DNA of 64,000 nucleotides. Origin: Alistipes sp. GTDB taxonomy: Bacteria; Bacteroidota; Bacteroidia; Bacteroidales; Rikenellaceae. The position numbers and the translations under genes were made by a program. The notes under the pieces were generated by a model that was not told the DNA's origin, made no database searches, and worked only from the letters and a program-made list of their open reading frames with translations. Shown here one piece after another: positions 12,771 to 64,000 of this stretch (the stretch's first letter is position 1; each line of letters opens with the position of its first letter). The stretch covers positions 124,001-188,000 of the forward strand of contig JAGBEH010000001.1 in assembly GCA_017937125.1 (NCBI GenBank), written 5' to 3'.

Positions 12771-14867
12771 TTAGAATGCGTATCCCGTTATCGTTTCGGT
12801 ATATGCGTTCCAAAAATCCGCTGCCTTATATGCGTCGGCCGACTTTGCGGGAACGTATATTTTTGCCGCCGGTGCGATACCTGTGAATGCGGAATAGCCC
12901 AATGTCGGCGGGGTCGTCGGTTTGCAGTAAACCGTTTCGAGGTTGCTGCAATTATAGAATGCGTTTGTACCTATTCCCGTTACGCCGGACGGAATGACGA
13001 CTGTTGTCAGGCTGCTGCATCCGTGAAAAGCATCGCCCTTGATTTCCGTTACGCTGTCGGGTATGGCAATGTTTTTCAATGCATAGCAATTGCAGAACAA
13101 ATAGTCCGGAACGGTGGTTATGCCTTCGGGAATGTTCGCGGTTTCCAGTGCGGAGCAACCGTAAAATACTTGCGAGCCGATATAAGTAACGCTTTCGGGG
13201 ATACGAATGCTTTTCAGGCTGCTGCATCCGGTGAAAGTTCCGGCCTGTACGGACTGTATGCCTTCGGGAATATTCACTGTCGTCAGTCCAGTGCAATATT
13301 TGAATACATAACCTTCGATAGTCGTTACGTTATCGGGAATACGGACGGACTTGAGACTGCTGCAACCGTAAAATGCACTGTCTTTGATAGTCGTTGCACC
13401 GTTCGGAATTTCGATAGCCGTCAATGCCGTACAATCGCCGAATACGCCTTGTTCGATAACGGTTACCCCATGAGGAATATTTATCTCCGTTAAGCGGTTG
13501 CAGGCTTTGAATGCGTTTTTGCCGATGGACGTAACATTTTCGGGAATGTAAACCGATGTCAGGCCCGTACAGTTATGAAATGCGAAATCGCCGATCGAAA
13601 TCAATGTCGGCGGGAAGACGACGTATGCCAGATCGGAACATTTTTCGAAAGTGTATTCTTCGATCGATGTTACGCCGTCGGGAATGGCGATTACGTGCAG
13701 TTTCGAACACCCCCCAAAAGCGAAACGGCCTATCGATTTCAAGTTGCGCGGAATTCGTATGTTGGTAAGGTGTCCGCAGCTCAAAAACGCTCGCTCGTCT
13801 ATCGTTTCGATCTCGTCGGGCAACAAAATGGTCGTCAGTTTGCTGCTCCCTCCGAATGCCGATGTACCGATAGCGGTTACCGTCCCGTCGAACTCGATGA
13901 TGCCGAGTCCGTTTTCGTAAGTGTTGGATACGATGGATGCCCCGAAACCGTCCGATGCATACGGCTCGACCGTTTGTCCGTCGGACGATGTGTAGTAGAT
14001 CTCGTTGGGTGCGGGCTTAAGGGGTGCGGTGTCGAATTCGGACATCGGAACTATATGATTGCGTTCGACCGTCAGCGTTTTGTCCGTGCATTTTGTCATA
14101 CGTGCGCCGAGACAGTCGTCTATGGTCACGGTTATGCCCTTGTCGAATGTCTGCGGCAGGACGGCGATGTAGAAATCCGTCGGTGTTTCGGATAATCGGA
14201 CGCCTTCACCGCAATCGAGAGTGACTGTTCTCGATTGTGTATATGTACTGCTGCTGCCTATGCTGCTCTTCAGAGTCGAATGATTTATGCGGATATTGCC
14301 CGCCAACAGCTCGTCGTTATTACCCTTGAGGGTGATGTTGTCGATTTCTTCGGTGCCGGTGAGGGATATTTTTATCCAGCCGAGAACATTTTTGAATTGC
14401 AGTATCTCATCGTCTCCCGCAGCGACCATAATATGTGTCGTATCTTCCGAATGGCTCTGTACGGCAGGTATTGCGGTTTCGATGCAGGTCGTGTACGGGG
14501 GATCGTAGTAGTATGCGTATTTGCACGCGGGGTCGTAAGGATATACGGCGATGATTTCGTCGATCGGATCGCCTGTTTCGCCGCTTACTTTCGATAATGT
14601 ACCTTCGGTATCGCCCGTTTTGCCGTCGAACTGCCAGCATTCGTTGGCTCTCGATTTGTTGAATACCGAGACCATATCGCCTTCGGTCCAGACGGTATGG
14701 CCGCCGTCGAGTTGAACCCGCGAATTTTCGCCGTCGATTGCGGCATACAGTTTCTCCGACGGAACGGTTGCGTCGGTCGGTCTATTTTCCGCAGGATTTT
14801 CGGTGCAGGCCGCCGATATCGTTGCGACGGCTGCGAGGAGTAAAATCTTCTTCATACGTTTTACCAT
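12771..14867 (-). CDS. BspA-type leucine-rich-repeat surface lipoprotein with fimbrillin-like N-domain
   Basis: A 698-residue lipoprotein with lipobox ISAAC (Cys21). Residues about 30-275 form a fimbrillin-like domain (VWTEGDMVSVF, AVYPYD, FKNVLGWIKIS, VRLSETPTDFYIAVLP), clearly related to the lipoprotein at 48377-50590. From about 310 to 660 there are roughly 14 LRR_5/BspA repeats of 23 residues (for example ALKNIAIPDSVTEIKGDAF). BspA proteins are surface adhesins binding host matrix (family knowledge). The ATG at 14867 overlaps the stop of the upstream microprotein gene (ATGGTAA), suggesting translational coupling; Met5 at 14855 is an alternative start. The leader contains a C10/G10 tract, so expression may vary between cells. 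Confidence 0.88.
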   Translation of the reverse strand: MVKRMKKILLLAAVATISAACTENPAENRPTDATVPSEKLYAAIDGENSRVQLDGGHTVWTEGDMVSVFNKSRANECWQFDGKTGDTEGTLSKVSGETGDPIDEIIAVYPYDPACKYAYYYDPPYTTCIETAIPAVQSHSEDTTHIMVAAGDDEILQFKNVLGWIKISLTGTEEIDNITLKGNNDELLAGNIRINHSTLKSSIGSSSTYTQSRTVTLDCGEGVRLSETPTDFYIAVLPQTFDKGITVTIDDCLGARMTKCTDKTLTVERNHIVPMSEFDTAPLKPAPNEIYYTSSDGQTVEPYASDGFGASIVSNTYENGLGIIEFDGTVTAIGTSAFGGSSKLTTILLPDEIETIDERAFLSCGHLTNIRIPRNLKSIGRFAFGGCSKLHVIAIPDGVTSIEEYTFEKCSDLAYVVFPPTLISIGDFAFHNCTGLTSVYIPENVTSIGKNAFKACNRLTEINIPHGVTVIEQGVFGDCTALTAIEIPNGATTIKDSAFYGCSSLKSVRIPDNVTTIEGYVFKYCTGLTTVNIPEGIQSVQAGTFTGCSSLKSIRIPESVTYIGSQVFYGCSALETANIPEGITTVPDYLFCNCYALKNIAIPDSVTEIKGDAFHGCSSLTTVVIPSGVTGIGTNAFYNCSNLETVYCKPTTPPTLGYSAFTGIAPAAKIYVPAKSADAYKAADFWNAYTETITGYAF

Positions 14868-14983
14868 TCCTGTTCAGGGTCTACGACCGGATTTTCGAGG
14901 CTCGCCGCGCAACCTCGTTCCAACGAAAGTTCGATTACCCGTACCTGCGGCGCGAGGTAGGGGTAAGAAAAACGTGTTTTCAT
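14861..14983 (-). CDS. Microprotein (copy A) upstream of the LRR lipoprotein
   Basis: A 40-residue frame opening at an ATG whose product starts MKTRFSYPY. It contains the core APQVRVIELSLERGCAAS, aligned without gaps to the cores of two other small frames at 48210-48356 and 63790-63918, and ends acidic with Trp (DPEQEW). No signal peptide or membrane segment is seen, so a cytosolic product is likely. Its stop codon overlaps the start of the LRR lipoprotein. The frame remains open upstream to ATG 15148 across the homopolymer, so a 95-residue form with an N-terminal extension is possible. The function is unknown. Confidence rests on the three-copy conservation and matching context. Confidence 0.65.
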   Translation of the reverse strand: MKTRFSYPYLAPQVRVIELSLERGCAASLENPVVDPEQEW

Positions 14984-15090: not shown

Positions 15091-15100
15091 CCCCCCCCCC
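15091..15100. repeat. Homopolymer C10 (G10 on the transcribed strand)
   Basis: Ten consecutive C in the leader of the microprotein/LRR lipoprotein transcript, between its promoter element and the 14983 start codon. Such a run is very unlikely by chance and is prone to slipped-strand mispairing. Confidence 0.9.
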
Positions 15101-48130: not shown

Positions 48131-48162
48131 TTTGCATTTTTGAAGTGAAATGTCTACTTTTG
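48131..48162 (+). promoter_or_regulatory. Promoter of the microprotein B / lipoprotein operon
   Basis: TTTG at 48131-48134, a 20-base spacer and TACTTTTG at 48155-48162: one of the best consensus matches in the window. ATG 48210 follows about 47 bases later. Confidence 0.75.
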
Positions 48163-48209: not shown

Positions 48210-48356
48210 ATGAATTCGACTTATCGTATTTTTAAGGGGAGGGGCATCTACGTCTCTCCCGATCTGTCCGTCCGACGGGTTTTCGCCGAGCGCGGTTTTG
48301 CCATGTCGTCGGGAACGACCGATGAATGGACCAAAGACGAAGAAGAGAATCTTTAA
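48210..48356 (+). CDS. Microprotein (copy B) upstream of a fimbrillin-like lipoprotein
   Basis: A 48-residue frame starting MNSTYRIFKGRGIYV. Its core SPDLSVRRVFAERGFAMS aligns without gaps with the cores of the frames at 14861-14983 (minus) and 63790-63918. The tail is acidic (TDEWTKDEEENL). No signal peptide or membrane helix is present. A strong promoter precedes it and the lipoprotein ATG follows 20 bases after the stop, so the two are co-transcribed. The function is unknown; possibilities are a regulatory leader peptide or a small cytosolic partner of lipoprotein synthesis or export. Three-fold conservation supports real coding. Confidence 0.7.
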   Translation: MNSTYRIFKGRGIYVSPDLSVRRVFAERGFAMSSGTTDEWTKDEEENL

Positions 48357-48376: not shown

Positions 48377-50590
48377 ATGAAAAAGACATCGAGATTATTT
48401 GCGTGTGCGGTTATGGCGCTCGCATTCGCAGGTTGCGTGAAAGACGCGGCCGAAGATAATTTTACGACCTGCCCCGTGGAAGGTACGGCCACTGTTTCCG
48501 CATCTATCGAGACTGTGACCAGAACTTCGCTGAACGACCCCGACGAGGGCGTCGCCCAGGTACTGTGGAGCGAAGGGGACGTCATAGGCGTGATTACGTC
48601 CGACGGTACTATCCGCCGTGCCGTGCTTGCCGAAGGCGCGGGAACGACGAACGGACTGTTTACGGTTTCCGATGCCGTCGAGGGCGAAACCTATGATTAC
48701 GCTGTCTATCCCTATATTTATAACGGCAACACGGCATCCAAAAAGACTGTTGCGGGGACGACGTTGTCGTTGAATCTTCCCGCATTCCAGACATATTCCG
48801 CCGACGGCGTGTTCTCGACTTCCACCAATACTATGGTGGCGACGGCCGATGATGGCGGCCGCCTGAATTTCAAGAGCGTTATGGGTTGTCTGGAGTTGAA
48901 GATCTCGGGTTCGCAGACGGTGCGCGGCATTACGGTCAAAAATTCCGTAACCAAAGTCGCGGGAGAGGCCACGATAGACCTCGAGCAGCAGACCCTCGCA
49001 ATGGGTACGGCGAACACCTCTTTCAGTTTCGCATATCTCGAATGCCCCGAAAAGGTGCAACTGAGCGAAACGCCGACCTCGTTCTATGTGCTTCTGCCTG
49101 TCGGAACGTACGACTGCCTGCAAATCGGCATCCTGACAGATGACGGTTCATATGTCCGTTCGGCTACTTCGGCGCATACGGTAAAACGTGCGACCGTCAA
49201 ACCCGTAAATTGCGGCAATCTCGATACGATGATCGACACTTCGTCGGCGATAGATCTTTCGGCTGCCGGATATGCGAACTGCTACATCGTTTCCCCGAGC
49301 GGAAGCGAGCAGGTTTACTCGTTCGAGACCAAGTTCGTGGACGGTACGCCCGTCGAGAACCCGAAACTTCCCGGTTCCGGCGACAAGTCTCTGGCCTTTT
49401 TCTCGCTGATATGGGCCGAGGATTTGAATATCGCTTACGACATACGTTTCGACAAGGCCGAGGGCAAGGTGTATTTCAAGTACGACGGCAAAACGGTCGG
49501 CAATGTGCGCATTGCGGGCTGCAACGACTTTTTCGCATCTGCGGGCGTTGCTTCGAACGTAAAGCGCGCGCTCGAGAGCATCGCATGGGCTTGGCATATC
49601 TGGGCGACGGATGCTCCGTCGGTCGGTATTACGGTCGATGGAAATAACGTGAAGGATCTCGACGGCGACGGAACGATTACTACGGAAGAGGTTGCGCGTG
49701 CCAACAAGATAAATCTTATGGACCGAAATTTGGGCGCTACGTGGGCCCCCAAGAACGTATCCGAGGTGGAGGGTATGACACTTGAGCAGGCTACGGCTTC
49801 TGCGGGATGTTTCTACCAGTTCGGCAATCCGCATCCTTATCCGCGTCAGAAGCAGCTGGGTGAGAATGTCGGCAACTGGCAGTACAGCGCCGTGAAATAT
49901 CGGTTCGGATTCTCGCAGTACGTTCAGGACTGGACGGCGTCGAACGGTTCGAAGACCCATGCTTTGGTCAATATGTATTATCCGATGTATCGTTATGCTA
50001 CTACTTATGTGCCGTCTGTCGTAGGAGGTAATGCCGATAGCAAATATAGCGGCAATCAGTGGCTCAAGGCCGATATTATCGGCGGTAACAGCACTGCGAA
50101 CGAAGCTTCCAAGGATTTGTGTTTGTGGGGCGGACAGGGTTCCAAGACCAATTACGACCCGTGTCCCGCAGGTTGGGTCGTTCCCCATCGCGGCAATATC
50201 TACCAGATGGTTATCGGTGCGACTAAGACCATTAACGGTGCTTCGGTCAGTGTAAACCGTCCGTATTTCCAACTCGGGCCTCGGTCGGGCGAAGTGGCAA
50301 TGGGGTCTTATCTAAGCTATGACGGAGTGGCGTGCGACTGGCATCCGTTCTCGGGATATATGGGAGGCGGTTCGATCGGTGCTTCCGGTACGGCCTGTTA
50401 TTATTGGGGTTGCGGATACTATGGTGCGAGTTATACTACGACATCTACCAAACTCCAATACAATATGGCTTCTTATGCCCGTACGCCGAAGGACCTGCAC
50501 TCATCAGGTGCATATTTGAATAACTCTACTTTAGACTCATGGTGTGTTCTTGCTAACGGTTATCAGGTGCGTTGCGTAAAGCGTAATTGA
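48377..50590 (+). CDS. Fimbrillin-like lipoprotein with FISUMP-type C-terminal domain
   Basis: A 737-residue lipoprotein with lipobox AFAGC (Cys20). Residues about 35-290 are a fimbrillin-like domain (LWSEGDVIGVI, AVYPYI, FKSVMGCLELKISG, VQLSETPTSFYVLLP), homologous to that of the LRR lipoprotein at 12771-14867. The C-terminal part (about 440-737) has NLMDRNLGATW, GCFYQFGNPHPYP, DPCPAGWVVPHRG and a final QVRCVKR, the pattern of FISUMP-type domains. An EF-hand-like loop DLDGDGTITTEE (427-438) precedes it. It is probably surface-exposed; ligand unknown. The start at 48377 fits the signal peptide. It follows microprotein B by 20 bases. Confidence 0.85.
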   Translation: MKKTSRLFACAVMALAFAGCVKDAAEDNFTTCPVEGTATVSASIETVTRTSLNDPDEGVAQVLWSEGDVIGVITSDGTIRRAVLAEGAGTTNGLFTVSDAVEGETYDYAVYPYIYNGNTASKKTVAGTTLSLNLPAFQTYSADGVFSTSTNTMVATADDGGRLNFKSVMGCLELKISGSQTVRGITVKNSVTKVAGEATIDLEQQTLAMGTANTSFSFAYLECPEKVQLSETPTSFYVLLPVGTYDCLQIGILTDDGSYVRSATSAHTVKRATVKPVNCGNLDTMIDTSSAIDLSAAGYANCYIVSPSGSEQVYSFETKFVDGTPVENPKLPGSGDKSLAFFSLIWAEDLNIAYDIRFDKAEGKVYFKYDGKTVGNVRIAGCNDFFASAGVASNVKRALESIAWAWHIWATDAPSVGITVDGNNVKDLDGDGTITTEEVARANKINLMDRNLGATWAPKNVSEVEGMTLEQATASAGCFYQFGNPHPYPRQKQLGENVGNWQYSAVKYRFGFSQYVQDWTASNGSKTHALVNMYYPMYRYATTYVPSVVGGNADSKYSGNQWLKADIIGGNSTANEASKDLCLWGGQGSKTNYDPCPAGWVVPHRGNIYQMVIGATKTINGASVSVNRPYFQLGPRSGEVAMGSYLSYDGVACDWHPFSGYMGGGSIGASGTACYYWGCGYYGASYTTTSTKLQYNMASYARTPKDLHSSGAYLNNSTLDSWCVLANGYQVRCVKRN

Positions 50591-55264: not shown

Positions 55265-58200
55265 ATGGCAAACTTAGACAAGTTAAAAAACTGTTGCCCG
55301 AAATTCCGCCGTATGATTGCGGCGGGTTGGGCGATATTGACATTGACTGTGGCCGCACCGGCTTTTGCATTCGATGTCGTGTCGGCACAACAGCCATCGA
55401 CGGTGACTTTGCAGGTCAGCAATGTGCCGCTCGCCGAGGTGCTGAAGTCCATCGAGTCGCAGACTGCCTACACATTTTTCTTCAACAACGAGTTGGTCGG
55501 TGCCGCAGGCCGCGTGACCGTCGATATCGACGGGTCGAGCGTGCGGGAGGCGCTGGACAAGGTGCTCGACGGCAAGAATCTGGTGTACGAGTTCCGCGGC
55601 GACAAAATCCTGATAAAACGCGAGAAGTCGGCATCGCAGCCGAATACTGCCGCTCCGGAACCTGCGGCCGAAGTCTCGAAGGCGCCTGCGACGAACAATG
55701 TCGCGGTAGCCGCCGACGGTACGCGTATGCTGACGCCTGCACCTGCGGGCAAGGCTGCGGTAGTCAGGGGCGTGGTTCTCGACGAGGCGAAAAAGCCTAT
55801 GCAGGGCGTGGGCGTTATCGTCAAGGGTACGCTGACGGGTACCGTTACGGATGCCGACGGTGCGTTCGCCATAAAGGCGCGCCCCAACGACGAGCTGTCG
55901 TTCAGCTTCATAGGTTATAAAACCCAAGATATATTTGTCGGCAACAAGTCTAATATAAATGTCACCCTTGTGGACGAAACGCAGGCCATAGATGAAGTGG
56001 TCGTTACGGCGCTCGGCCTCAAACGCGACGAAAAATCGCTCGGATATGCGGCGACCAAAGTCGGCGGGGACGTCTTCTCGTCGTCTACGACCTCCTCGAA
56101 CTGGCTTTCGGGACTTACGGGACAGGTTGCGGGTCTGACCTTGCAGAAGACGGGTGCCGGTGCGGGCGGTTCGATGCGTGTGACGTTGCGCGGCGAGTCG
56201 TCGCTCGACCTTTCGAATAACGGCGCCCTGTTCGTTATCGACGGCGTGCCGATGTTCAATACCTCGTCGGGCTCGGGCGAGTCCGCCTATGCTATCGACT
56301 ACGGCGACGGTACTGGCGATGTCAATCCCGACGATATAGAGAACATTACGGTGCTTAAGGGTCCTGCCGCGACGGCGCTTTACGGTTCGGAGGCTGCCAA
56401 CGGCGCTATCGTCATCACCACCAAGGCGGGCGACAAGCAGGACGGCAATGTCAGTGTGACATTCACGTCGAATTTCGTGGCCGAGGTGGTCAATACCGAG
56501 CCCGATCTCCAGTATATATACGGTCAGGGCGGTACCAAGGGACACGACACGTTCCATTACGGCGACCCCGTGGACGGTGACGAGCAGACTACGGCGGACG
56601 ATACATGCTGGGGCCCGAAGATGGATGGTACGCCGTACTATCAGTATTACGATGTGAAGCGCGGTATCGGCGTCGATGAAAACGGCGTGCGCGTGAAAAC
56701 CCCGTTCATCAGCTACGGCAACTGGTTCAAGGATTTCTTCAAGACGGGATGGAATACTACCAATTCGCTGTCGCTCTCGGCCAAACTCAACAAGAACAAC
56801 AACATACGACTCTCCATTTCGGATTCGCGCAGCCAGTCCATCACTCCGAATTCGCCCGCGATGCGTCAGTCGTTCAAAATCAACTCACGCAATAAGGTCA
56901 ATAAGTGGCTGACGATGAATACGTCGGTGACCTACTATCGTCGTGATTGCGGCAACCTGCCGCAGATGGGTTACGGCCAGGCATCGGTTATGTACTCGTT
57001 GTGGACTATGACGCCTAACATCAATATGGATTGGGCGCGCGATTACTGGCTCGAAGGCAGCGAGGGCATACAGCTGAAGCCCAATTCGCTGACGGGTGCC
57101 AAGAACAACCCCTATTTCGTGGCATACGAATGTCTTAACACGCTCGACCGCGACCGCGTATACGGAAATACGTCGCTCGACCTGCATTTGTACAAGGGTC
57201 TCGACCTGATGATCCGCGGCGGTGTCGATTTCTCGCGCGACCACCGTACTATGCGCCAGCCCAAAGGCTCCTATTCGCAGCGTTACGGTATGTACCGCGA
57301 GGTCGATGTGAGTTCGTTGCAGACCAGTATGGATTTCCTGCTCAAGTACGGGCGCAAGCTGGGTGCGGGCTTCGATATGAAGCTGAACTTCGGCGGCAGC
57401 ATAATCAACCGTATGTTCCGCGAGACGAACAAGACGGCGGAGCAGCTCAAGCAGCCGGGCGTCTATTCGCTGGCGAACTCCGTGGAGCGCGTCAAGACCA
57501 CGACGTACGACTACGAGCGCCAGACGAACAGCCTTTACGGTTTGATACAGTTCTCGTGGCGCGATGCGATATTTTTGGATATTACGGGACGTAACGACTG
57601 GTCGAGTACGCTGCCCGTAAACAACAATTCCTATTTCTATCCGTCGGTATCGGCGAGCGTGCTGCTCAACGAACTTATCGATTTCGGTACGGCCCGCAAT
57701 ATCGTCAATCTCGTAAAAATCAGGGGCAGTTTCGCACAGGTGGGTCACGATACCAAGCCTTACAGAACCACCGACTATCTGGCTTCGGCCAATTTCCCCG
57801 GGACGTACCAGATTCCTGGAACGATGAACAATGCCAATCTGCGTCCCGAAATCGTCTCCTCGTGGGAGGTGGGTTTCGACCTGAGGATGTTCCGCAACCG
57901 TTTGGGTATCGATTTGGCGTATTACGACAACACGTCCAAGGATCTTATCGTGAATATGCCCGTCAGCTCGGCTTCGGGCGTTACCAAACGTTTCGCCAAT
58001 GCGGGTACCATCCGCAACTACGGATGGGAGTTGCAGGTGAACGGTACGATTATCAAATCGAAGAGCGTGCAGTGGAAAGCATATATCAACTGGTCATTGA
58101 ACCGCAATAAGGTCGTCGATCTGGGCGAGGGCGTCGATTCGTGGATCGTGGCGTCGTACTCGTCGCACGCATATATGACGGCCTACAAGGGCGGGTCGCT

Positions 58201-58897
58201 TTCGGCTATGTACGGCTTGGGCTACAAGCGTGCTCCGAAGGGTTCGTATATCGTCGAGAAGGACGGCAGCATTCAGAACGTTTCGGGTAAGATCATCGTC
58301 GATGAGAACGGTTATCCCCAGTACAGCGACGAGCTGCTCTATGTCGGCGAATGTACTCCCGACTGGAAAGGCGGCTTCGGCACGAGCGTGAAGTGGAAGG
58401 GGCTGACGGTGTCGATAGCGTTCGACGGCCAGCACGGCGGCCACGTATACTCTTATACCAATGCGAAGTTAGGTACGAGTGGCAAGGGCAAGTTCACCCT
58501 TGCGGGACGTTACAACGGTCTGGTGCTCGACGGCGTGAACCAGCTGCCCGACGGCAACTTCATACGCAATACGCACAAGACGGCCGACATCGTCGAATAC
58601 TACGGTCTGGCCTATGCGTTCCAGAACTGCGAGCAGAACTTCGTAAGCACCGAGTTCCTCAAGCTGCGCGAGGTGCGTATCGAGTATGAATTCCCTCGCA
58701 AATTGCTGGCGCGTACCAAATTCATTCAGGGACTGTCTCTGTCGGTGTACGGCCGCGACCTCTATTGCTGGTCGAAGTTCCCGGGCTGGGACCCCGAGGG
58801 CGCGTTTATGCGCGGAGCATCCGTGGTTCCCGGTTTCGAGATGTTGCAGATGCCGGGTACGGCTACTTTCGGCGGCAGCGTGAAGATAGTTTTCTAA
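55265..58897 (+). CDS. SusC-type TonB-dependent receptor with STN signalling domain
   Basis: A 1210-residue outer-membrane receptor. The signal peptide is unusually long (cleavage near residue 35-42). Then an STN domain (about 45-115, VPLAEVLKSIESQTAYTFFF), a linker, a carboxypeptidase-D-like domain (about 165-245, GVVLDEAKKPMQGVGVIVKG), a plug (about 255-385, LTGQVAGLTLQKTGAGAGG, SEAANGAIVITTK) and a large barrel ending GGSVKIVF. The STN domain is characteristic of receptors that signal to FecR, matching the neighbours. The substrate is not evident; no glycoside hydrolase is in the window, so peptide or glycoprotein uptake (RagA-like) is equally possible. Confidence 0.95.
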   Translation: MANLDKLKNCCPKFRRMIAAGWAILTLTVAAPAFAFDVVSAQQPSTVTLQVSNVPLAEVLKSIESQTAYTFFFNNELVGAAGRVTVDIDGSSVREALDKVLDGKNLVYEFRGDKILIKREKSASQPNTAAPEPAAEVSKAPATNNVAVAADGTRMLTPAPAGKAAVVRGVVLDEAKKPMQGVGVIVKGTLTGTVTDADGAFAIKARPNDELSFSFIGYKTQDIFVGNKSNINVTLVDETQAIDEVVVTALGLKRDEKSLGYAATKVGGDVFSSSTTSSNWLSGLTGQVAGLTLQKTGAGAGGSMRVTLRGESSLDLSNNGALFVIDGVPMFNTSSGSGESAYAIDYGDGTGDVNPDDIENITVLKGPAATALYGSEAANGAIVITTKAGDKQDGNVSVTFTSNFVAEVVNTEPDLQYIYGQGGTKGHDTFHYGDPVDGDEQTTADDTCWGPKMDGTPYYQYYDVKRGIGVDENGVRVKTPFISYGNWFKDFFKTGWNTTNSLSLSAKLNKNNNIRLSISDSRSQSITPNSPAMRQSFKINSRNKVNKWLTMNTSVTYYRRDCGNLPQMGYGQASVMYSLWTMTPNINMDWARDYWLEGSEGIQLKPNSLTGAKNNPYFVAYECLNTLDRDRVYGNTSLDLHLYKGLDLMIRGGVDFSRDHRTMRQPKGSYSQRYGMYREVDVSSLQTSMDFLLKYGRKLGAGFDMKLNFGGSIINRMFRETNKTAEQLKQPGVYSLANSVERVKTTTYDYERQTNSLYGLIQFSWRDAIFLDITGRNDWSSTLPVNNNSYFYPSVSASVLLNELIDFGTARNIVNLVKIRGSFAQVGHDTKPYRTTDYLASANFPGTYQIPGTMNNANLRPEIVSSWEVGFDLRMFRNRLGIDLAYYDNTSKDLIVNMPVSSASGVTKRFANAGTIRNYGWELQVNGTIIKSKSVQWKAYINWSLNRNKVVDLGEGVDSWIVASYSSHAYMTAYKGGSLSAMYGLGYKRAPKGSYIVEKDGSIQNVSGKIIVDENGYPQYSDELLYVGECTPDWKGGFGTSVKWKGLTVSIAFDGQHGGHVYSYTNAKLGTSGKGKFTLAGRYNGLVLDGVNQLPDGNFIRNTHKTADIVEYYGLAYAFQNCEQNFVSTEFLKLREVRIEYEFPRKLLARTKFIQGLSLSVYGRDLYCWSKFPGWDPEGAFMRGASVVPGFEMLQMPGTATFGGSVKIVF

Positions 58898-58919
58898 TTT
58901 CAAAGAGAAGCACAGAATT

Positions 58920-60437
58920 ATGAACGTGAATATAATGAAATCGACTGCGGCATTCGTGTTCGCGGCATCGGCTTTGGCGGGATGCGCGGGTTTCGAGGAG
59001 ATGAATAAGAACAAGAATGCCATTCAGAATACTACGGCGACGACATTCGTGCAACCTACGGTTTTCAATTACGAATATCGTATGATCAACAGGTCGTTCT
59101 CGATGACTTCGCAGCTTATGCAATATACGGTCGGCCATCAGCAGAATGCCGACAAGATAAGCAACTACCGTATAATGAACAGCGTTACGGCAGGTTACTG
59201 GAACGACTTCTATACGGTCGGCGGAAATGCGCAGGCGATGCTCGAGCAGGCTCGCAAGGACAAGAACGATGCGGCCGTCGCCATAGCCGAGATATTGAAG
59301 GTCCTCGCCATATCGACGATTACGGATGCCTACGGCGACGTGCCCTATTTCGAGGCTTTGCAGGGTTATACCTCGGGCGGTACGGAGTTTACGCCCCGTT
59401 ACGACAAGCAGAAGGAGATTTATCGCGATCTGTTCCGCCTGCTCGAGGATGCCAATACGTTGCTGGCCAACTCGAAGAACAATTTCGACCCGACCGAGGA
59501 CTATATGTACGAGGGGGACATAAAGAAATGGCGCAAGTTCGGCAATTCCCTTTATCTCAGACTGCTGATGCGCGTGGCCTTGAAGGACGACATAGATGTG
59601 GCGACCGAGAGCCTTTATGCGGTGTCGAAGCTGAACGAGATTTTCTCGTATCCGGCCGATTACCCCGTTTTCGAGAGCCGTGAGGATGCTGCCGATGTGC
59701 CGTTCGACGATACGGTGACGGCTATGCAGACGCCGTTCTTCTCGTGGCGTGCGGGAAGCTGGAACAGCAATATGATCTGCGAGCGGCTTATGAACGAGAT
59801 GTACGATCCCGATGCCGACCTGTCGGATCCGCGATTGAATTTCTATTTCGACAACAAGCGTGTCGGCGCCCCTACGCAGGTGACTTATCAGGAGCTCGTG
59901 CCTTATGTGGATATAGTGGCGCACTATAACCGCGGTCTGCTCCAGAACCGCGACCATTATCCCATTATGTCCTTGTCCGAGATATATTTTATCTATGCCG
60001 AGGCGGCACACAGGAAATGGATCTCGGGAACACCTAAAAGCTACTACGATCGTGCCATCACGGAGTCGATATACGAATGGAATCCCGATGCGAGCGCATC
60101 GACCGTATCGTCGTTCCTGAACCACCCGAACGTTACGCTCGACGGATTGAGGGACGAGGCGGCGCTTGAACGCATAATGACGCAGAAATGGATTTCGACC
60201 GTTCTGGTCGGCATAGAGTCGTGGTGCGATTTCCGCCGTACGGGTTATCCCGAGATGCCCGTCAAGTCGCTTGCGGGCAATGACGGCATATTGCCTACCC
60301 GTCTGCTCTATCCCGCCGACGAGGAGTTCCGCAATCCCGACAATTACAAGGAGGCGGTCAATGATTGGCTCGGCGGCGTGAACAATATGAAGACGAACGT
60401 GTGGTGGGCCGACCATAATCAGAAACGAGTAAAATAA
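58920..60437 (+). CDS. SusD-like nutrient-binding outer-membrane lipoprotein
   Basis: A 505-residue lipoprotein with lipobox SALAGC (Cys22). The sequence shows helical TPR-type segments and the motifs ITDAYGDVPYFEAL, YDKQKEIYRDLFRLLEDAN, and near the C-terminus VLVGIESWCDFRRTGYPEM, as in SusD-like_2 proteins. It forms the lid over the SusC-type receptor, capturing nutrients at the surface. It starts 22 bases after susC, and the next lipoprotein starts 12 bases after its stop. Confidence 0.94.
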   Translation: MNVNIMKSTAAFVFAASALAGCAGFEEMNKNKNAIQNTTATTFVQPTVFNYEYRMINRSFSMTSQLMQYTVGHQQNADKISNYRIMNSVTAGYWNDFYTVGGNAQAMLEQARKDKNDAAVAIAEILKVLAISTITDAYGDVPYFEALQGYTSGGTEFTPRYDKQKEIYRDLFRLLEDANTLLANSKNNFDPTEDYMYEGDIKKWRKFGNSLYLRLLMRVALKDDIDVATESLYAVSKLNEIFSYPADYPVFESREDAADVPFDDTVTAMQTPFFSWRAGSWNSNMICERLMNEMYDPDADLSDPRLNFYFDNKRVGAPTQVTYQELVPYVDIVAHYNRGLLQNRDHYPIMSLSEIYFIYAEAAHRKWISGTPKSYYDRAITESIYEWNPDASASTVSSFLNHPNVTLDGLRDEAALERIMTQKWISTVLVGIESWCDFRRTGYPEMPVKSLAGNDGILPTRLLYPADEEFRNPDNYKEAVNDWLGGVNNMKTNVWWADHNQKRVK

Positions 60438-60449
60438 TCGATTGCAGTT

Positions 60450-63400
60450 ATGAAAAAATATATTTCGATATTTATCGCAGCGGCATTTGCAGCCGTGTCG
60501 TGTACGACGGACGGCACCGATTACGAGCCGTCGTCGCTGACCATCGAACCCGTGCCTGCGTGGGACGTTACGCGCGGTATCACCAGCGCGAGCCAGACCG
60601 TGAAGGTGCAGGTCAATCTCAACGTCCAGACTATCAACTGGCAGGTGTCGTCCGACAGCGAGTGGCTCAAGGTGGACCCCAATGCCGTTTATACGGGTAG
60701 CTCCGAGTTGGAAATGGTAGTCGAGGCCAACGACGCTTTCGACAAGCGTAATGCGGTCCTGACTTTTACGGCAGGCCTCTATACCAAGAAGGTCGAAGTC
60801 GATCAGGCGGGCAATGTATTTATCCTGAGCGACGTATATAAGGTAATGGCTTCGAACGAGACCGAAACGTTCGACGTCGAGGTGCGCACGATGTCCGACT
60901 GGACTATCGAGACTCCCGAGTGGATACGGGCCGAGAAAGTCGGTACGCCCGCTGTTGATGAGCAGGGACAGACGACAACGCTCCTGCGCGTGACCGTAGG
61001 TGCCAACAGCGATGCCGAAGCCCGTTACGATGCCGTGCAGCTGGTTCCGCCCGAAGGATACAATGCCGAATTTACGGTTTTCCAGTTCGGTACGGATGTG
61101 CCGATGGACGAGAATGGCAATATCGCCATACCCGCCGAGGGCAACGTCTCGTTCGATGTCGAGGCGCCGTTCGGCATTATCGCCGATGTCGAAGCGCCCT
61201 ATTGGGTACAATGTACGCAGACCGATTCCGAGGACGGCCTTCATACGAAATACAATTTCTGGATAGGCAAGAATCTCAGCGACACCAAGACGGGTCGCGA
61301 GTGCGTCGTAAAACTGAATATCAAGGATAGCGATGCGTCGGCCGACCTGCCGAACATATCCCAGGATTTCGTGCCGGCGGGCGGTATCGTTACGGGTCTG
61401 GGCTTCAAGATGTTTGCCGAGGCGTACAATACGGGCGACGACATTTCCTACTGGGCGTCGGACAGTGAGGGTTCGCTCGTAGTCAATGTGCTTTCCGATG
61501 TCAATATGAGCGAGGTGGAGTCGTGGACTCCCATCGGCACGGAAGCGCGCCCGTTCGAGGGGCTGTTCCGCGGCAACGGCTGGTTGATTACGGACTGGAA
61601 AGGCGATAACTCCCTTTTCGGTTATGTAGGCAGGAACGGAACGGTTCAGGATATAATAGTTGAAGAGAACTGTACGATGACATTCTCGGGTGCTGCTACC
61701 GCAGAGCGCTTGCAGGGCGTGTTCGTCAGTGTCCTGCGCGGTACGCTCGACAACTGCGTGAACCGTGCGCCCGTTTCCGTAGCGAACGTGAACGCATCGG
61801 CCGCGATGGCGCTCGGCGGTGTCGTAGGCCTGCTCGACGGCGGTACGGTCCGCAACAGCAAGAACGAGGCGGCGATAACGGTCGCGGCGGATGTAAGGTC
61901 TTCGGCGGCTGTCAATATCGGCGGTATTGTCGGCAAGACCGTAAACGAGGCTTCGACGATCGAGGCTTGCTCGAACAGCGGTGCCGTTACGGTCAATGCC
62001 AAGGTTTCCGACTCCGCATCGCTCGGCGTCGGCGGCATTGCGGGCGTGGCGGCAGGCAAGCTGGCCGACTGCTCTACGGGAGAGAAGATATTGAGCGTCA
62101 GCACCGATATGTCGCGCAACGTATATTGCGGCGGCATAGCGGGTTATTCTACGGCTGCCGTGGAGAACTGCGTCAATGTAATGTCGGTCTCCAATACGCT
62201 GTACCGCAGCGGCGACGCGGTTTACAACGAATATACGGGCGGTATTGTCGGCTATCAGGAGTTGGGCAGCGTTAAAGGCTGCACCAACCGCGGCTCGCTC
62301 ATATCCTCTTCGAACCAGCAATACCTCTGTCTGGGCGGTATCGCGGGTACGTTTGCCAACGGCGAGGCCGAAAACAACGTCAATCTGGCCAAGATAGATT
62401 TGCAGGGCGATGCGTCGGCGGCTATCAAGGGCGTGAGATACGCTAAGGTCGGCGGACTGTACGGCTCGTTCAACGCAGCGCAGGGCGCTTCCGACAACGA
62501 CAGCAAGAACAGCGGCCCCATAACCGTAACCAATATCGAGAGCGCTACGAACAACTCGTCGCAATTGCAGTTGGGCGGTATTTTCGGCGACCTGAATTCC
62601 AAAACGCCCGTTTCGTCATTGAGCAACTCGGGCAATATCACCGTAACCCTCATCGCCAACTTCAATCACTTCGCCATAGGCGGTATTGCGGGTGCAACCG
62701 AATGCGGCGTGTCGGATTCGACCAACGAGGGAGCCGTACTGCTCAATAATGTCGCGGTAATTCATAATACCGCGAAGATCTACTACGGCGGTATCGCAGG
62801 CTGGAACAATGCGGGGGAAAACAACATATATCTCAAATGCGTGAACAACGGCGAACTTGCCGTAGCCACGAAATCGACCGAGGTCAATGTGCTTCCTTCG
62901 TTCGTGGGAGGTATTCTCGGATATACCGAGTATCCCGTCACGGTGAAAAGCTGCGACAATAACGGATACGTGAACAACTCGGGAGCCAATAACCGTTACG
63001 ACGGCCTGTTCTCGTCGGCTGGCGGCATCGTCGGCGCCATAGTCGATACGCCTGCCGAAATCGACGACTGCCATTCGACGGCCAATACCCGAAACTATGC
63101 TTACAACCGTACGGTCGCTATGGATAAGCCGAACACGATGTCGCATTGCGGCGGCGTGGTGGGATGTGCCTTAGGCGAGAGCTCTTCGGACATCGTACGT
63201 ATCAGCAACTGCTCCAGCACGGGAGTTCTCGAGAACAAGCGTTCGACGGCGGCGGGTATCGTCGGCTTCGCCCAATACGCCTCCGTTTCCGACTGCCGTT
63301 TCACGGGCAGAATCATCGGCAGCGGTCCTCACTTCGCGGGAGGTATCGCGGGATGTCTCAGCAACTCCACGGTCACGGGATGCGTCGTGAAGTCTACCGA

Positions 63401-63761
63401 TATGTACAGCCACAGCGGTTACGGCATCAACAACCTGAACTATTTCGGTGTTTCCGGTATCGCGGGATATATGTACGATAACTCGTCGATTACCGATTGC
63501 AAGGCGTTTGCCGTGCTCATCCAAAATGCGCAGTCTACGGCTACGCCCGACGAGCACCTCGGTATGGGGCTTATCGGCGGCATCACGGTTCCGACCGCCA
63601 CTGTCAGCAACTGCGGTCTGGGCGGCTCGTTCCACACGGGCGGCGGAGGCAATGCCGCGAACCTGATACTTACGGTCAATTCCGACAATTTCGGGACATG
63701 CATCATCGGCGACGGCAACGCCTCGACGAGCGGATGCTATTATTGGAACGGCCAGGAATGA
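60450..63761 (+). CDS. BACON/GLUG-repeat surface lipoprotein
   Basis: A 1103-residue lipoprotein with lipobox AAVSC (Cys18). Residues about 35-125 are a BACON domain (INWQVSSDSEWLKVDP), and a second BACON-like domain follows at about 130-215 (DWTIETPEWIRAEKV). From about 330 to 1050 the protein consists of many GLUG-type repeats (GGIVGYQELGSVKGCTNRG, MALGGVVGLLDGGTVRNS) expected to form a long beta-solenoid. It is the third gene of the susCD operon, in the place of a surface glycan-binding protein, but GLUG repeats are also found in adhesins. The ligand is unknown. Confidence 0.88.
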   Translation: MKKYISIFIAAAFAAVSCTTDGTDYEPSSLTIEPVPAWDVTRGITSASQTVKVQVNLNVQTINWQVSSDSEWLKVDPNAVYTGSSELEMVVEANDAFDKRNAVLTFTAGLYTKKVEVDQAGNVFILSDVYKVMASNETETFDVEVRTMSDWTIETPEWIRAEKVGTPAVDEQGQTTTLLRVTVGANSDAEARYDAVQLVPPEGYNAEFTVFQFGTDVPMDENGNIAIPAEGNVSFDVEAPFGIIADVEAPYWVQCTQTDSEDGLHTKYNFWIGKNLSDTKTGRECVVKLNIKDSDASADLPNISQDFVPAGGIVTGLGFKMFAEAYNTGDDISYWASDSEGSLVVNVLSDVNMSEVESWTPIGTEARPFEGLFRGNGWLITDWKGDNSLFGYVGRNGTVQDIIVEENCTMTFSGAATAERLQGVFVSVLRGTLDNCVNRAPVSVANVNASAAMALGGVVGLLDGGTVRNSKNEAAITVAADVRSSAAVNIGGIVGKTVNEASTIEACSNSGAVTVNAKVSDSASLGVGGIAGVAAGKLADCSTGEKILSVSTDMSRNVYCGGIAGYSTAAVENCVNVMSVSNTLYRSGDAVYNEYTGGIVGYQELGSVKGCTNRGSLISSSNQQYLCLGGIAGTFANGEAENNVNLAKIDLQGDASAAIKGVRYAKVGGLYGSFNAAQGASDNDSKNSGPITVTNIESATNNSSQLQLGGIFGDLNSKTPVSSLSNSGNITVTLIANFNHFAIGGIAGATECGVSDSTNEGAVLLNNVAVIHNTAKIYYGGIAGWNNAGENNIYLKCVNNGELAVATKSTEVNVLPSFVGGILGYTEYPVTVKSCDNNGYVNNSGANNRYDGLFSSAGGIVGAIVDTPAEIDDCHSTANTRNYAYNRTVAMDKPNTMSHCGGVVGCALGESSSDIVRISNCSSTGVLENKRSTAAGIVGFAQYASVSDCRFTGRIIGSGPHFAGGIAGCLSNSTVTGCVVKSTDMYSHSGYGINNLNYFGVSGIAGYMYDNSSITDCKAFAVLIQNAQSTATPDEHLGMGLIGGITVPTATVSNCGLGGSFHTGGGGNAANLILTVNSDNFGTCIIGDGNASTSGCYYWNGQE

Positions 63762-63789: not shown

Positions 63790-63918
63790 ATGAACAAGAA
63801 AACCAGTGCGTACGAGGCGCCGCAAATTTTATGGAAATTTGTCCTCGCTGAAGAGGGTTTCGCCCTCAGTAATGAATTCTCGCTCGAAGAAGTAGATGAA
63901 AAGGACGGGGAGTGGTAA
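63790..63918 (+). CDS. Microprotein (copy C) downstream of the SusCD operon
   Basis: A 42-residue frame starting MNKKTSAYE. The core APQILWKFVLAEEGFALS aligns without gaps with those of copies A and B; the tail is acidic and ends in Trp (DEKDGEW). It lacks a signal peptide. It begins 28 bases after the BACON/GLUG gene and is followed 28 bases later by another exported-protein gene, the same arrangement as copies A and B. The function is unknown. Confidence 0.7.
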   Translation: MNKKTSAYEAPQILWKFVLAEEGFALSNEFSLEEVDEKDGEW

Positions 63919-63946: not shown

Positions 63947-64000
63947 ATGATGAAAAAGATTTTTATCGTATTGGGTTTGGCAGTCGGAGTACTGACATCC
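63947..64000 (+). CDS. Start of an exported protein (truncated by the window end)
   Basis: Eighteen codons, MMKKIFIVLGLAVGVLTS, forming a typical signal peptide start; the frame runs off the end of the window. ATG 63950 is an equally good start. By analogy with the two other microprotein loci it is predicted to encode a lipoprotein with a fimbrillin-like N-domain, but nothing beyond the signal peptide is visible. Confidence 0.7.
   Translation, partial: MMKKIFIVLGLAVGVLTS

Follow-up and report, generated by a model that had tools for sequence, protein, structure and literature searches.

Three short open reading frames in a 64,000-nucleotide stretch of Alistipes DNA (the window) belong to a family of small genes which, with a probability of about 0.7, encode precursor peptides for a RiPP-like pathway akin to that of the Linear Polyphosphorylated Peptides (LPP), with one maturation set and about 20 precursors scattered over the genome. 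A modified and probably exported peptide is favored because of the Y-x-x-P...S pattern of the ORFs, their co-occurrence with genes for an RRE, a kinase and a nucleotidyltransferase, and the operon linkage found in other families. On the same three grounds, this reading is better supported than a translational leader or a mere small partner for lipoprotein production, the two roles that had been considered in an earlier note on this DNA.

Copy A (40 aa, 14861..14983, minus strand) has a Y-L-A-P leader, an A-A-S motif and a tail ending in QEW; copy B (48 aa, 48210..48356, plus strand) has a Y-V-S-P leader and an A-M-S motif, and copy C (42 aa, 63790..63918, plus strand) a Y-E-A-P leader, an A-L-S motif and a tail ending in GEW. 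The earlier note had described these frames correctly with regard to coordinates and translations, the gap-free alignment of an 18-residue core across the three copies, and the acidic tails with Trp in 3/3; none of the copies has a match in Pfam or NCBIfam at E ≤ 1. Each copy is followed, as had been claimed, by a gene with a lipoprotein-type signal. Behind copy A this gene encodes BspA-type leucine-rich repeats (12771..14855, minus strand; LRR_5, E 1.4e-120), behind copy B a protein without a Pfam family at E ≤ 0.01 (48377..50590, plus strand), and behind copy C a protein whose gene has its start in the window (63947..64000, plus strand), is cut by the window end and continues in the genome. 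The gaps of 5, 20, and 28 nt for A, B, and C depend on the chosen starts of the lipoprotein genes, all three of which possess an earlier in-frame ATG overlapping the small ORF.

Promoter elements had been proposed ahead of copies A and B; copy B has a pattern match, and copy A one of the two boxes. The promoter-like TTTG-N20-TACTTTTG before copy B (48131..48162, plus strand) is the single match to TTTG-N18-22-TAnnTTTG in the window, where 0.26 are expected and 22 of 100 shuffles give at least one. Copy A is preceded by a TATATTTG box, recognized by eye, and lacks an upstream box at promoter spacing. A run of ten G (15091-15100, minus strand) lies between this box and copy A, whose frame is open upstream through the run; it is possibly a slippage or phase-variation tract. 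Copy C, without a match to the promoter pattern, starts 28 nt past the stop codon of the lipoprotein gene ahead of it, and since genes for a SusC-like receptor, a SusD-like lipoprotein, and a BACON/GLUG lipoprotein precede it on the same strand (55265-63761), it looks operonic.

The family had been described as three-copy, which turned out to be too few: the three copies are the only matches to the family profile in the window, and the genome from which the window comes (2.16 Mb, 12 contigs; the source genome) holds about 20. A single member (P0003) used as query found six further places in the source genome at E ≤ 10 (best E 9.8e-5), which exceeds what a chance resemblance would give. A profile of nine source-genome copies gave 20 matches there at E ≤ 10 (weakest E 0.033), nine of these being the profile's own rows, together with matches in other genomes down to E 1e-10; a 43-row profile, partly built from source-genome copies, also gave 20, at E ≤ 0.01. 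With this latter profile and threshold, homologous short frames were found to be present in related genomes at all three levels searched. Of 180 Alistipes genomes, 140 have matches, with a maximum of 28 places per genome; at the family level the count is 118 out of 200, spread over 7 of the 22 genera, and a sample of 295 genomes across the order yields 13. The 54 named loci are distributed over Alistipes (29), Rikenellaceae (7), Bacteroidaceae (10), Bacteroidales (5), and Bacteroides (3), and Bacteroides rodentium JCM 16496 is among those carrying a family ORF. For the analysis of the motif, 175 profile matches, drawn from the best-scoring loci of the searches rather than from all matches, were reduced to 138 unique ORFs. 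A more distant variant (L247:10865-11044, profile E 8e-4) occurs close to a group of PqqD, nucleotidyltransferase, and kinase genes of a second type; the motif may extend further across Bacteroidota than the profile detects. Family membership of the ORF match in genome G317, where the next gene has no lipoprotein signal, may be doubtful. Plasmids gave no tblastn match at E ≤ 1 with one family member as query. A viral origin of the small ORFs was rejected, as 312 stretches of viral contigs fit the pattern and none of them encodes a relative.

All but one of the 138 unique ORFs accommodate the pattern Y-x-x-P, 11 residues, G-F-A-x-S. Within these 137, Y is found in 135, the P-to-G spacing of 11 in 133, E two positions before G in 132, F in 126, A in 120, Ser (the candidate phosphorylation site of A-x-S) in 131, and Thr in 3, counts that arise partly by construction because the ORFs were gathered with a profile of the same motif. 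The tail behind the motif is variable in sequence and acidic, with 29% D+E against 2.3% K+R, and Cys is nearly absent. RiPP precursors typically display a conserved leader and a more variable core, and the pattern of the small ORFs resembles a RiPP leader. In 33 pairs of relatives, taken from outside the window and chosen for at least 62% protein identity (a choice that lowers the ratio), the pooled pN/pS of the leader stretch is 0.22 and that of the remaining sequence 0.35. Synonymous change is favored in these pairs, and the notion of a real coding family, easily missed in annotation and positioned ahead of genes for exported lipoproteins, is supported.

These features bear on the possibility of a regulatory leader peptide, where the act of translating the small ORF, or a pause at its acidic tail with the aromatic end, would control translation of the lipoprotein gene. 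The short gap to the next gene would suit such a device, as would the presence of W, F, or Y within the last five residues of 120 of the 137 ORFs; in 2000 within-tail shuffles this number averages 71.6 and never exceeds 88. Conservation, however, is strongest in the Y-x-x-P...S stretch and not near the stop, the window contains no Rfam match at the gathering score, and both the co-occurrence with PqqD, kinase, and nucleotidyltransferase genes and the ORF that precedes a kinase gene instead of a lipoprotein gene in genome G043 (see below) would be left unexplained, which makes a regulatory leader improbable.

The leaders of lasso peptides carry YxxP and are bound by an RRE, and as the YxxP motif of the small ORFs recalls these leaders, an RRE was looked for. 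The source genome encodes one stand-alone PqqD domain (C6:124615-124884, 89 aa), which matches PF05402 above cut-off. It further encodes an HprK-like kinase (C6:392258-393157, E 3.7e-87 to a profile of seven aligned relatives, in which GxSGTGKST and LLNDD are invariant), a candidate S26-like peptidase (about C6:391800-392249; of the three catalytic residues, Ser and His do not vary among 11 sequences), an MsbA-like ABC transporter (C6:393150-394856, E 4e-126 to the L211 exporter, whose best match is MsbA with E 3e-77, below the curated cut-off), and a PF14907 nucleotidyltransferase in two copies (C4:537065-538219 and C4:868365-869465). Kinase, peptidase, and exporter score below the curated cut-offs of their NCBIfam models, TIGR04352 in the case of the kinase; for the peptidase, two relatives match TIGR02228 with E 1.8e-8 and 3.3e-7, both below cut-off. 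The two nucleotidyltransferase genes (~537 kb and ~868 kb on C4, loci L232 and L233) are situated, by eye, amid polysaccharide-synthesis-like genes. Against solved structures, PqqD returned one chance-level match (E 0.66) and the peptide profile none at E ≤ 10. In the source genome and in most, not all, of the genus loci examined, PqqD is placed beside a recQ-like gene (by eye); apparent PqqD fusions in frames of 1012-1087 aa (L195-L197) were discarded, as they look, by eye, like accidental open frames beside a recQ-like gene. Radical-SAM-like genes, again by eye, are found near a second PqqD match in genome G347 (L222), possibly a different RiPP system.

Within the 180 genomes of the genus, PqqD is present in 137, the HprK-like kinase in 132, and PF14907 in 122 (121 above cut-off). 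ORF and PqqD are both present in 134 genomes and both absent in 37, with six genomes having the ORF only and three PqqD only; the corresponding numbers are 129, 37, 11, and 3 for the kinase, and 119, 37, 21, and 3 for the nucleotidyltransferase. When the survey is confined to the 70 genomes with at least 90% completeness and at most 5% contamination, ORFs, PqqD, and kinase are found in 54 each, with 0 discordant, and the nucleotidyltransferase in 49; every genome discordant for PqqD or kinase has a completeness under 90%. Genomes G360, G434, and G470 of the genus carry the machinery, with no ORF detected. These counts ignore phylogeny and come with no control family, and Fisher values therefore overstate the case; the ORF-less genomes could be one clade. 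At the level of the order PqqD accompanies the ORF in 11 of 13 ORF-positive genomes, yet it is common overall (183 of 295) and for this reason the order-level data give no support to the association; the ORF matches in G190 and G317 are without PqqD.

Evidence independent of the co-occurrence counts comes from gene linkage. In the source genome the precursors are scattered and the machinery occupies at least three places, with exporter, kinase, and S26-like peptidase genes adjacent. This adjacency recurs in five of six other genus genomes examined and in G441; in the sixth, G454, the exporter alone was called at the locus, and the kinase adjoins it by coordinates. In G043, which represents another family of the order, the small ORF and the genes for kinase, peptidase, PqqD, nucleotidyltransferase, and exporter follow each other in a row, the ORF being located directly upstream of the kinase gene and not of a lipoprotein gene. 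In G342, from the same genus as the source genome, the ORF and its lipoprotein gene stand back to back with a group of PqqD, exporter, and kinase genes. All five machinery genes lie together in G232 (another family) and in G434 (of the genus, no ORF found in this genome), and PqqD, nucleotidyltransferase, and exporter genes are found at a contig end in G062 (another family). In G282, likewise of another family, all five machinery genes, the ORF, and its lipoprotein gene lie within about 12 kb, and in G137 the ORF lies within about 6 kb of machinery genes. One may ask at this point whether the ORFs are real precursors of something and accompany the RRE and kinase genes by an accident of clade history. 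The co-occurrence uncorrected for phylogeny and the order-level PqqD data would agree with such a coincidence, but it does not account for the linkage of ORF and machinery in G043, G342, G282, and G137, and is regarded as unlikely.

With respect to the genes behind the small ORFs, the claim of a position ahead of lipoprotein genes extends well beyond the window. For 124 of the 138 ORFs the next gene is found at -60 to +100 nt, and of these 124 next genes, 116 satisfy a permissive lipobox pattern and 114 a permissive N-terminal signature; among the remaining ORFs, 3 are without DNA, 6 without a passing next ORF, and 5 have the next ORF further off. At the named loci a lipoprotein signal is present in 33 of 34 genes behind an ORF, compared to 54 of 257 other genes. 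A Pfam scan of 38 chosen downstream proteins (both complete window proteins plus 36 selected out of 53 complete ones, omitting all complete minus-strand-locus proteins and nine plus-strand ones) returned LRR_5 (BspA-type) in 10, Mfa_like_1 (fimbrillin-like) in 7, and DUF4465 in 3, with further families in one to nine proteins each. The part common to these lipoproteins is N-terminal, with an early Arg and a later Trp nearly invariant. In the window both complete genes with that N-terminal region follow a small ORF, a descriptive result as the profile was built with both. Exceptions are the copy at L023, which is followed by a SusC-like gene, and the copy of G043 (L077), which is followed by the machinery kinase gene.

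Along these lines, core and lipoprotein distances were compared across 18 pairs of the source genome and found to be correlated (Mantel r 0.37, p 0.0005; double-centred 0.28, p 0.0012); for the leader no such correlation with the lipoprotein is seen (r 0.11, p 0.19), and core-length difference alone gives a correlation of 0.24 with lipoprotein distance. When 115 pairs are compared, double-centring leaves a correlation of 0.19 for the core and one of 0.06 for the leader; when similar lipoproteins are taken out, core and leader arrive at 0.10 and 0.07, and then, with lipoproteins closer than 0.85 removed, at 0.055 and 0.057. The correlation is suggestive, as it fits cognate pairs of peptide and lipoprotein; joint duplication and length effects fit too. 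It could also be read, together with the 33 of 34 lipoprotein signals, in favor of a small cytoplasmic protein that acts as partner or chaperone to the lipoprotein and has no connection with peptide modification. Little weight is given to such a partner, however, considering the correlation from core length alone, the equal behavior of core and leader in the set freed of similar lipoproteins, and the co-occurrence and linkage of the ORFs with the RRE and kinase set. The lipoprotein pairing is the most novel and least explained feature of the family.

Returning to a modified precursor peptide, the following course of maturation can be envisaged from the predicted functions of the genes. The stand-alone RRE (PqqD) would grip the Y-x-x-P leader, the HprK-like kinase would phosphorylate the Ser of A-x-S, and the S26-like peptidase would remove the leader close to A-x-S. 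The MsbA-like ABC transporter would then export the acidic core, and one or the other nucleotidyltransferase encoded on C4 may decorate the phosphate. This single set would serve about 20 scattered precursors, and the fimbrillin-type surface lipoprotein, which is encoded with most precursors studied, presumably acts as partner or acceptor of the mature peptide. There are hints that these bacteria couple a modified peptide to a surface-displayed lipoprotein. The broader proposal, that a single set in each genome acts on as many as about 28 different acidic peptides, most of which are made with, and received or displayed by, their own fimbrillin-type lipoprotein, is tentative and is given somewhat less than even odds; under this proposal, peptide phosphorylation would serve to tag or to assemble the outer surface in gut Bacteroidales. 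Nearly the same gene set as in the LPP clusters of Bacillota is found in Bacteroidales of animal guts, in combination with many scattered, lipoprotein-tied precursors. If the assignment is correct, a new RiPP class enters a major gut phylum, a first concrete lead to LPP function is obtained, and a set of small genes without Pfam or NCBIfam match finds an explanation.

In the literature searched, mostly papers available without subscription, there was no account of the small-ORF family or of LPP in Bacteroidota. Look-ups in the available text of PMC10352776, PMC7533575, PMC7470986, and PMC12710340 retrieved no such account, and in the latter two none of the relevant terms was present. A comparison can be made with lasso peptides of the paeninodin/pseudomycoidin type, which, according to PMC13381572 and PMC7533575, also have an RRE, an HprK-like kinase, and a nucleotidyltransferase as accessory genes; by eye, no lasso cyclase gene is found beside the machinery described here. 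That the small ORFs are precursors of true lasso peptides is highly improbable: their YxxP-type leader is suggestive and the PqqD of the source genome weakly matches lasso PqqD models, below cut-off, but the B2 peptidase (PF13471) has 0 matches in this genome, and the reading was abandoned. A genuine-looking lasso-type cluster (by eye), in which a short PqqD-like gene adjoins an Asn-synthase-like one, is seen in genome G189 (L218), which has no match to the small-ORF profile. As to the SynChlorMet and HprK-related kinase A models (TIGR04248, TIGR04249, TIGR04352), the PqqD of the source genome is weakly similar to ScmD, and related kinases are weakly similar to HprK_rel_A and ScmC, with all SynChlorMet-type scores far below the curated cut-offs.

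The closest relatives are the lpp clusters of Bacillota described by Popov et al. (Nat Commun, May 2026; PMC13381572). According to that article, the RRE requires YxxP, a kinase adds several phosphates to Ser3 of a core that starts with AQS, and a signal-peptidase-like enzyme, aided by the RRE, cuts off the leader; the role of LPP is given there as unknown and the class as restricted to Bacillota, and the string "bacteroid" is absent from the main text. A core beginning with A-x-S, often AQS, would follow in the present family if the cut fell after F. The two systems differ in several points. The host belongs to Bacteroidota instead of Bacillota, about 20 scattered precursors per genome are found in place of the reported one to three per cluster and, unlike LPP, the Alistipes precursors are mostly paired with a surface lipoprotein. 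The machinery is split over several loci in Alistipes, and G043 unites precursor and machinery in one cluster. Of the reported leader consensus YxxPxVLxHQxIxFETxxS, YxxPx[VIL] and the Ser are common to both systems (by eye), whereas the HQ and FET parts are absent and E-x-G-F is present. As the system has neither the exact consensus in its leader nor all its genes in a single cluster, it is termed an LPP-like variant and not a member of LPP. What both have in common is a precursor with a YxxP leader and a Ser close behind, a discrete RRE, an HprK-like kinase, a PF14907-type nucleotidyltransferase, an MsbA-like exporter and, as a candidate in Alistipes, a signal-peptidase-like enzyme, as well as the setting in polysaccharide loci, known by report for LPP and seen by eye for the nucleotidyltransferase genes of Alistipes.
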